DNA of 64,000 nucleotides from a virus, in IMG/VR virus record IMGVR_UViG_3300009034_000013, positions 1 through 64,000 of that record; one strand, 5' to 3'. Below the pieces are notes generated by a model. It did not search any database and was not told the origin of the DNA. It saw nothing but the letters and a program-made list of their open reading frames with translations. The position numbers and the translations under genes were made by a program. Of the stretch, positions 39,794 to 43,999 are shown piece after piece. Positions within the stretch are counted from its first letter, which is position 1. The number at the start of each line of letters is the position of its first letter.

Positions 39794-40821
39794 CTATACA
39801 ACAATTTCATTCCATTCTTTGTCAGATAAAATAAGAATATCATTTCCAATTTTTTCAACTTCATATTGTTTGTCTTGGTTATCAATTTCATGAGCAAGAG
39901 CAGTAATGGAATTTATCAAACCCCATCGAGTAGATTTTTCACTCATCATGTTGTTAATAACTTTTTTTCCATCTTCTTTTGTTAATGGAAATCTTTTTGT
40001 AACATTTTCAACAGTATCTTGGATCATATTAATAGTTTGATTGGCCGCTTTTTTCATTTTTATAATTTCATTATCAAAGTTGGATTGAGTTATAGTTTTT
40101 TCAAGCAAACATCTTATTCTTTCCTGAAAACTTTTTAGTTCAGCCATTATAGCTTTATTATCATAAATATTGTAATCTTCAAGATCGTTTCCAATCCTTC
40201 TGCCAACATGATATTTTCTTATCACATTTTCACCTATCATTCCATTAGTACAAACTAATCTCCAAACAAGTTGTTTTATATTTATAGATCCACATCCGAC
40301 CTCTGAATTAGAAAATGTAATTCCAAATTGAACAATATCTCCTTTTTGAACTTCTCCTTGTATTTCTGGAAAAACAACTTGAATATACATTTTTTTTCAG
40401 TAATGCTACTTGACTTCACTCTCAAATTCATTTCTTTAATAATCGGTAGAAAAGCATGAAGTAGAAAAATGTTATCAATCGGTTTAAATCTATCAGACAA
40501 AAAAGCTCTTACTTTTCCATCTAATAATCTAACAAGATGCTTTTCTTGATTATTATTAAGCCAGGCATTAACATTTTGCTGTCTTAATCCTGGAACAACA
40601 GATCCCATTCGATTATAATATTCTTTTGGGATTTTTAATTTTTCTGCAACTTGACTGTGAGCTAAGCCATTAAGTTGATAATTAGATTTTCCTTCAATAT
40701 GGAAAAAATCATCTTTAATCATTCTTAACTTGTGATTTGGTACAGTCAGATCTTCTTTATTTCGATCCATCCTGTCAACCTCTTCTGCCAAATCTAACAG
40801 ATTCTTGTAATTTCCTTTCAT
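39794..40821 (-). CDS. DUF932 protein interrupted by a -1 frameshift at an A8 run
   Basis: Two frames together make one DUF932-like protein of ~342 aa. The first (40821 to 40282) carries LNGLAHSQVAEKLKIPKEYY, LVRLLDGKVRAFLSDRFKPIDN and ends off-family; the second (from ~40390 to 39794) resumes with VVFPEIQGEVQKGDIVQFG, SNSEVGCG and LVCTNGMI. They meet at A8 (40390-40397 on plus, as T8), where 0-frame codons read GAA-AAA-AAA, a perfect A-AAA-AAA slip site for -1 shifting. It is either programmed frameshifting or an indel. DUF932 proteins are common in phages and plasmids; role unknown. Confidence 0.7.
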
Positions 40822-40847
40822 AATATCCTCCTAAAAATATTTTATAG

Positions 40848-40915
40848 TTTCCTACGAACCTGAAATTAATCAGGTTTTCGGCTGGTTACCATTCAGCTCT
40901 CATTCAGATAGGAAA
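40848..40915 (-). ncRNA. hammerhead-like ribozyme, type I topology, one core insertion
   Basis: Minus-strand RNA. Stem I: 40908-40915 with 40848-40855 (8 bp). Core CUGA-A-UGA at 40907-40900 has one extra A. Stem II: G40899-C40880 plus GCUG/CAGC with a bulged A and 9-nt loop. GAA at 40879-40877. Stem III: 40876-40870 with 40863-40857 (7 bp), 6-nt loop. The cleavage triplet UUC ends at C40856. It lies 26 nt upstream of the DUF932 ATG. Confidence 0.6.
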
Positions 40916-40939: not shown

Positions 40940-41158
40940 TTATCTATCAAATTCACATTTTTCAATATGACAAAAATCATCAACTCTGCAACCATAACAT
41001 ATAGTTAAATTGGGACAATATTTTTGAACAATTCCATAAAAATCATTCCCAAATTTATTATATGTTTCATTTAAAATTTTAGTAAACATTCTACTATTTG
41101 GATGATATATTATAGGGCAATTATTACAATCTTCATCACATAATTTTTTTCTGTTCAT
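40940..41158 (-). CDS. cysteine-rich protein, 72 aa
   Basis: AAGGAG upstream. Seven to eight Cys (LCDEDCNNCP, KYCPNLTICYGCRVDDFCHIEKC) suggest two zinc or Fe-S sites. Not recognised; lies before the ribozyme-like motif in the leftward operon. Confidence 0.55.
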   Translation of the reverse strand: MNRKKLCDEDCNNCPIIYHPNSRMFTKILNETYNKFGNDFYGIVQKYCPNLTICYGCRVDDFCHIEKCEFDR

Positions 41159-42596: not shown

Positions 42597-43004
42597 TTAT
42601 TTTCCAGTACAAACTTTCTTGATTTTATTTGCTACTATACATAGTGCAGATAATGTGATTAACTTTTCTGTCAGTTTATCATTTTCCATTAATAATTCTT
42701 GAATATTCTTTTTCTTTTTTCTTAAAGATAACCATTCATCTTTTTCCTTCCTGCATTTTTCTAATGATTCATCTAACCATGAAAATAATACCCCATTTTC
42801 TGTTCTGTATTCATAGAAACATTCTTCTTTTTTTGTGAAAGGATTCAGAAATTTTTCATATATTTCTTTTCCTGATTTACATTTTGATCTTCCTGATTTA
42901 TCCCAGAAATTGGATTTTGTGTAATATCCATTTACTTTATTTAATGTTATTTCATCGATTGGTAAGCTCGTTTTTGGATACGTAATCCCAAATTTTCTTT
43001 CCAT
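42597..43004 (-). CDS. hypothetical protein, 135 aa
   Basis: Start at 43004 behind GAGGAGGG; the longer frame to 43094 runs through the ribozyme and is rejected. Basic, with KSGRSKCKSGKEIYEKF, CFYEYRTENGVLFSWLDESL and a coiled C-terminus ending in a hydrophobic patch (ITLSALCIVANK). Not recognised. Confidence 0.55.
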   Translation of the reverse strand: MERKFGITYPKTSLPIDEITLNKVNGYYTKSNFWDKSGRSKCKSGKEIYEKFLNPFTKKEECFYEYRTENGVLFSWLDESLEKCRKEKDEWLSLRKKKKNIQELLMENDKLTEKLITLSALCIVANKIKKVCTGK

Positions 43005-43016
43005 AATACCCTCCTC

Positions 43017-43078
43017 AAGGTTGTTTCGGCAATGCTTTGCCTTCATCAGTACCTCAGCATCAGAGGTAGACAGACCCC
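43017..43078 (-). ncRNA. hammerhead ribozyme, type III topology
   Basis: Minus-strand RNA. Cleavage triplet GUC ends at C43069. Stem I: UACCUC (43068-43063) with GAGGUA (43055-43050), 7-nt loop. Core CUGAUGA at 43049-43043, one extra A at 43042. Stem II: GGCAA (43041-43037) with UUGCC (43032-43028), AGCA loop. GAAAC at 43027-43023. Stem III: UGU (43072-43070) with ACA (43024-43022), then a bulged C and up to 5 more pairs (43074-43078 with 43021-43017). Every conserved core position is present. It ends just before the Shine-Dalgarno site of the 135-aa gene. Confidence 0.85.
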
Positions 43079-43123
43079 GGTTTCCCAGGGTCACCTTAAG
43101 GAATAGGTCAGCTGTGCCTATCC
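43073..43123 (-). ncRNA. two hairpins upstream of the hammerhead
   Basis: On the minus strand GACCCUGG pairs with CCGGGGUC across a GAAA tetraloop (43092-43073), and GGAUAGG pairs with CCUAUUCC (43123-43100, one bulge). The first hairpin shares bases 43074-43078 with the outer part of ribozyme stem III, so the two folds compete. Confidence 0.6.
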
Positions 43124-43580: not shown

Positions 43581-43649
43581 AATACCCTCCTCAAGGTCGG
43601 GGGCTTTTCTTGCCCCTCTAATTATAATATACAACAGAAAAATTAACTT

Positions 43650-43963
43650 CTGCTCCAGTCAATATTAATTGATTTATAACTTTTCTTATTACGTTTTTAT
43701 TCCATATAAAATAAAATCGACTTGAGAATCGAACCCAAGATAATCAACCATGTCGATTAGATGCAGAATCGAACTGCAATTAAAACCCATCTTGTTTTTG
43801 TGCTCCTTGATTACTCCTCATTTTCAATCATCCCAGTTTCTCTCAACTAATTTCATCTTGGATAATGGATACTGGACTTTCTTGATCTTAAGATCTCCGT
43901 GCCCCTGGTCTCCATCCAAGATAGGTTTTCTCCCCCATCTTGGACAAGGTTTTTATTACCTTA
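43650..43963 (-). ncRNA. structured leader RNA of the leftward operon
   Basis: The ~315-nt stretch between promoter and first gene is richer in G/C than its surroundings and folds well. It has AAGGU/ACCUU at the 5' end, an 11-bp stem (43944-43934 with 43925-43915), and an alternative 9-bp pairing of the same middle strand (43922-43914) with 43863-43855. Two T-arm-like hairpins lie near its 3' end. No coding frame is convincing here. Confidence 0.5.
43715..43758 (-). ncRNA. tRNA-like minihelix (acceptor plus T-arm)
   Basis: On the minus strand AAUCGAC (43758-43752) pairs with GUCGAUU (43721-43715), 7 bp, stacked directly on UUGGG/CUCAA with the canonical T-loop UUCGAUU (43738-43722). Only 13 nt replace the D and anticodon arms. 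A second perfect T-arm (UGCAG-UUCGAUU-CUGCA) lies at 43778-43762, just upstream. Not a normal tRNA. Confidence 0.5.
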
Positions 43964-43970
43964 TATTAAT

Positions 43971-43999
43971 AATATACTATATATGTAAGCAAAAGTAAA
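43971..43999 (-). promoter_or_regulatory. leftward early promoter
   Basis: On the minus strand TTTACT (43999-43994), 17-nt spacer, TATATT (43976-43971). Same TTTACTTTT type as the rightward promoters. Transcription would start near 43964, at the head of the structured leader. Confidence 0.65.

Follow-up and report, generated by a model that had tools for sequence, protein, structure and literature searches.

The minus strand of the 64,000-nucleotide stretch of viral DNA analysed here (the window) carries, upstream of a DUF932-family gene, what can with good confidence be regarded as a genuine type I hammerhead ribozyme which has a nucleotide inserted behind A6 (or, numbered differently, behind an A at N7), combines three stems with a pseudoknot and would cut itself between C40856 and G40855, probably at a slowed rate. 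Read from 40915 to 40848 on the minus strand, the element runs UUUCCUAU CUGA-A-UGA G A GCUG AAUGGUAAC CAGC C GAA AACCUGA UUAAUU UCAGGUU C GUAGGAAA (Table 1). This reading, together with a comparison to 600 shuffled windows given below, confirms what the sequence-only reading had described, i.e., a type I topology with an 8-bp stem I, the GAAA strand, a 7-bp stem III and the core CUGA-A-UGA; the bulged A in stem II, the pseudoknot between loop II and the 3' tail and the recurrence of the insertion (termed A6a) go beyond that description. Stem I (UUUCCUAU/GUAGGAAA, 8 bp, with a U.G pair adjoining the core) is open, stems II and III (the latter AACCUGA/UCAGGUU, 7 bp) are closed by loops and all three join at the core, whereby the conserved part of stem I was found to be its inner 5 bp (CCUAU), followed by a 2-nt spacer and the pseudoknot; three further A-U pairs on the outside are optional. 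The GAAA strand (40879-40876), the A15.1-U16.1 pair (U40857), a residue other than G at H17 (C40856) and the 10.1-11.1 pair beside the core (G40899-C40880, then the bulged A) are likewise present, so every structural hammerhead feature tested was found except the exact core strand CUGANGA, in place of which the element reads CUGAAUGA, one base too many, and was therefore filed as a hammerhead variant. The extra A is 40903 or equivalently 40904, and the sequence fits equally well whether the insertion is placed behind A6 or behind an A at N7. Folding energies amount to -18.4 kcal/mol for the hammerhead fold vs -19.5 kcal/mol for the best fold, a slightly different four-way junction, a distance of 1.1 kcal/mol from which the pseudoknot is left out.

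Table 1. Features of the hammerhead variant and the gene downstream of it (window coordinates).
Feature	Position	Strand	Basis
Type I hammerhead ribozyme variant, whole element	40848..40915	-	structure read directly; match to covariance model R1
Stem I, 5' strand UUUCCUAU (partner 40855-40848)	40908..40915	-	pairing with 40855-40848
Core strand CUGA-A-UGA, extra A = A6a	40900..40907	-	read directly; insertion recurs elsewhere
Stem II: G-C, bulged A (40898), GCUG/CAGC, loop AAUGGUAAC	40880..40899	-	read directly
Core GAAA (G12 A13 A14 A15.1)	40876..40879	-	read directly
Stem III hairpin AACCUGA-UUAAUU-UCAGGUU	40857..40876	-	read directly; folding
Predicted cleavage site, C17 (40856) / G1.1 (40855)	40855..40856	-	homology to hammerheads
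Proposed pseudoknot, loop II side, AUGGU	40888..40892	-	pairs with ACUAU; conserved offset
Proposed pseudoknot, 3' tail side, ACUAU	40844..40848	-	loop II/tail pairing and covariation
DUF932-family gene, two overlapping frames	39794..40821	-	Pfam PF06067; phrog_1362

Loop II of the element can pair with the 3' tail at a fixed spacing, the pairing being separated by 2 nt from the 5 bp of stem I. Twelve of the 14 type I members with a bulged stem II show 3 to 7 bp of tail/loop II pairing after the same 5 bp and 2 nt, for example GUUGGU/ACCAAC, GUAGU/ACUAC and UGGC/GCCA (AUGGU/ACUAU in the window), and loops were found to pair better with their own than with permuted tails (p 0.00025). Taken by itself, the pseudoknot of the window element is weak evidence (P 0.03, including one G.U). 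The alignment with relatives, which the sequence-only reading had called for, revealed the pairing to be conserved: in 13 type I relatives with the 20-nt stem II design of the window element (window excluded), most of which also keep the above spacing, 93.6% of the cells in proposed pairs are standard, two-sided changes occur in 4 of the 5 stem I pairs and in 3 of the 5 pseudoknot pairs, and none of 500 shuffles equalled the observed covariation. Thus predicted from the relatives, the loop II-tail pseudoknot appears to recur in the window at the matching offset. Close relatives offer no variation, as the sole other copy among them, located on a second IMG/VR contig, is 100% identical over 12.6 kb.

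The insertion itself was found to recur. A first scan of 2.9 million viral contigs, using the core and a stem II of the window kind as the pattern, gave matches in unrelated contigs which show stems I and III, although neither was required by the pattern. To remove the bias on the inserted letter, scans with both letters free (CTGANNGAGAG..GCCGAAAC and CTGANNGAGTC..GACGAAAC, plus the corresponding canonical patterns) were run and identified insertion matches with hammerhead stems in 15/40 and 16/42 cases, the flank-shuffle expectation being 1.35 and 3.15. Within these scans A occupies the first inserted position in 26 of the 31 hammerhead-like vs 14 of the 51 stemless matches (Fisher p 8e-7), and the second letter of the insertion cases is U, C or G, resembling N7 of canonical hammerheads. 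The notion that the inserted base is always A was ruled out by one good case with UU (L271); likewise, a requirement for the stem II bulge was ruled out by nine CUGAAUGA cases in which stem II lacks the bulge, A6a being present in types I and III, with stem II bulged or unbulged. A scan of prokaryote genomes yielded further examples, carried by contigs of Pelotomaculum, Paenibacillus, Dethiobacter, an Oscillospiraceae and a Deltaproteobacteria bin, and A6a and canonical hammerheads co-occur in several contigs (L100, L179, L256, L267, L302, L304 and L314); a blastn search of an isolate phage collection gave no close A6a relative. A uniform recount over the collected loci arrived at 30 A6a vs 293 canonical hammerhead-like sequences, which are not natural frequencies because the loci were fetched by pattern; A6a appeared a single time among hammerheads outside the search anchors, against 81 canonical cores, the larger A6a counts coming from insertion-anchored scans. 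Since some 30 hammerhead-like loci of other phages and prophages share the extra base, A6a appears, as judged from sequence comparison, to be a recurrent and tolerated natural variant rather than a wreck.

For several A6a hammerheads the nearest neighbour is canonical and differs mainly by the extra base (L132/L171, L141/L185 and L011 (1986)/L228), and the canonical near-twin of the window element (L172) differs from it in stem II by one base. The existence of such near-twins implies that the insertion arose more than once on a working scaffold, and the view that all A6a members form one clade is unsupported, several having a canonical nearest neighbour. The simplest mutation would be a duplication of A6 (of U7 in L271), which by itself would account for the inserted letter being A; in the L119/L141 family the extra base is equally numberable after an A at N7. 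Elsewhere A6a was kept, in unrelated contigs and hosts, while the stems diverged with compensation (L010/L012, and L096, L106, L107, L247 and L258). These findings bear on the question raised by the sequence-only reading, namely whether the element is a slower variant or decayed. In Perreault et al. 2011 (PMC3088659), one natural A6a hammerhead is described as having low activity, ascribed to a lost contact of the A6-N7 phosphate with U4. This low activity, the evolutionarily young insertions implied for several lineages by the near-twins and the ease of a plain A6 (or, in L271, U7) duplication would all be compatible with decay, meaning that the ribozyme was inactivated by the extra base and survives in this phage merely as a recent structural relic; decay is however unlikely, as the window element keeps its stems, the cleavage-site C and a possible pseudoknot, and as A6a persists in the diverged, compensated groups. 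Of the two options raised, decay thus loses ground to the presence of A6a in about 30 loci with covarying stems and pseudoknot, and slowness is suggested by the published case, the one source that speaks to it. Because of that case, a working but slow ribozyme with partial processing upstream of DUF932 is most likely. A further idea, that A6a hammerheads constitute a maintained, tuned phage subclass which is slower or condition-dependent, stands before particular genes and shares its genomes with fast canonical ribozymes, is put forward tentatively, the chances being against it; if true, the extent of cleavage would vary from gene to gene.

The element resides in the gap between two same-strand genes, bounded by the end of one ORF at 40940 and by the start of the DUF932 ORF at 40821, its last base being located 26 nt before the ATG at 40821, in agreement with the distance given by the sequence-only reading. 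Most type I and III members checked likewise locate to a short distance upstream of an ATG start codon with a ribosome-binding site, the genes downstream of A6a ribozymes being assorted; many phage contigs bear several hammerheads, canonical and A6a mixed, before assorted genes. The proposal of the sequence-only reading that RNA processing by the two ribozymes of the operon serves to set stoichiometry is a conjecture. At 80 loci encoding DUF932 proteins no A6a hammerhead was found before DUF932 save in the identical copy, hence the ribozyme does not travel with the gene. Structure within a 5' UTR is by itself able to affect translation, and the position directly before the ribosome-binding site, both in the window and in most relatives checked, would fit a structured 5' leader for translational control or stability which kept the hammerhead fold with cutting unneeded. 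This explanation is quite improbable, given that H17 is C in 17 of the 18 aligned A6a type I members, though the search itself barred only G, and that the canonical relatives have the same scaffold, with the hammerhead of phage PaP3, equal in geometry, being listed as active in PMC3088659. In the preferred reading, i.e., the self-cutting hammerhead, the three stems would form and loop II would dock onto the 3' tail of stem I through the pseudoknot, upon which the transcript would cut itself at the predicted site, so that the upstream product would end, past the stem III hairpin, in a 2',3'-cyclic phosphate and the DUF932 mRNA would begin with a 5'-OH leader of 34 nt before the start codon. As the extra base probably lowers the rate, this processing may be partial. 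In the DUF932 gene itself a -1 shift at an A8 run near 40390 (40380-40400, minus strand) separates the two overlapping frames, whereas its relatives are single-frame; both contigs of the phage show the shift, which may reflect programmed slippage, a recent mutation or a shared assembly error.

Two further elements of the operon were observed. Its first hammerhead (43003-43105, minus strand) appears to be of type III and to have a GUC site; a GACCC..GGGUC hairpin interrupts stem III, which also overlaps the Shine-Dalgarno sequence of the DUF3873 ORF; an extra A lies between A9 and stem II, and the fold z is -6.1. A long non-coding, structured-looking leader (43590-43990, minus strand) precedes the first ORF of the operon, the final bases of which leader (CUUGAGGAGGGUAUUAUG) recur before the next gene.

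That the element resembles a hammerhead by chance is a practically negligible explanation, already refuted: the core motif by itself is expected 0.22 times per window, but the full motif was absent from 600 shuffles and the covariance model gives an E of about 2e-13. The underlying search was a relaxed type I search allowing a canonical core, an insertion after A6 or an insertion after A9, for which the element is the sole match in the window; 600 dinucleotide shuffles of the window gave 31 weak matches, none of them with stems of at least 8/5/7 bp. The covariance model R1, built from the 13 relatives with the window element excluded, scored the element with 57.4 bits (E 1.7e-13, at 40915-40839), again as the sole match in 64 kb, and as a positive control both the scanner and R1 recovered the hammerhead of phage PaP3. 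The Rfam hammerhead families gave nothing for 40848-40915 at the gathering cut-off or at relaxed thresholds, which says little since canonical phage hammerheads of the same test set (L061, L256, L304 and L314) fall below the gathering cut-offs as well. Weak Rfam matches to TPP, traJ and DUF2693 RNA were dropped, being far under the cut-off.

Among the closest known counterparts are type I hammerheads of phages such as PaP3, which share with the window element the three stems, the CUGA..GA, GAAA and UH-site elements, the 5-bp stem I, the 2-nt spacer, the proposed loop II-tail pseudoknot and the intergenic position in a phage; unlike PaP3, the window element possesses the extra nucleotide in the CUGANGA strand and the bulged A in stem II. 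The A6a variant of PMC3088659, compared by its published description, is likewise a natural hammerhead with its insertion immediately behind A6; the group reported here extends to about 30 loci of types I and III and shows covariation as well as several near-twin pairs. The published case was sought in phages PaP3 and Bcep176 and was found in neither. The saltern hammerheads HHmeta and HHphage, described in PMC3088659, are phage hammerheads with a core insertion too, which however lies near C3 and stem I and was linked to high salt; HHphage is located 13 nt before a start codon and HHmeta was slow under standard conditions. One A6a case is hence already in print; the literature searched, which omits most subscription journals, gave no mention of A6a beyond PMC3088659 and no populated group with covariation, pseudoknot and near-twins.

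The CUGANGA strand is regarded as near-invariant, and searches often discard candidates with a changed core. The roughly 30 natural cases that share the A6a insertion, several of them matched by an almost identical canonical sequence, amount to a natural experiment on the tolerance of the core for an inserted nucleotide; the set also bears on possible compensation by outside contacts (the pseudoknot) and on the use phages make of hammerheads. Separate from A6a, phage hammerheads were found to commonly possess an additional base (mostly U) that separates A9 from stem II (38 matches vs 2 expected; loci include L104, L149, L153, L156, L161 and L162), and three phage contigs (L162, L304 and L267) bear at least three hammerheads before different genes. 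R1-like type I hammerheads were furthermore observed in 15 of 113 genomes of the class to which the Pelotomaculum genome belongs, whereby those read have nearly all canonical cores and several precede a recurring GGGGTGCTT sequence.
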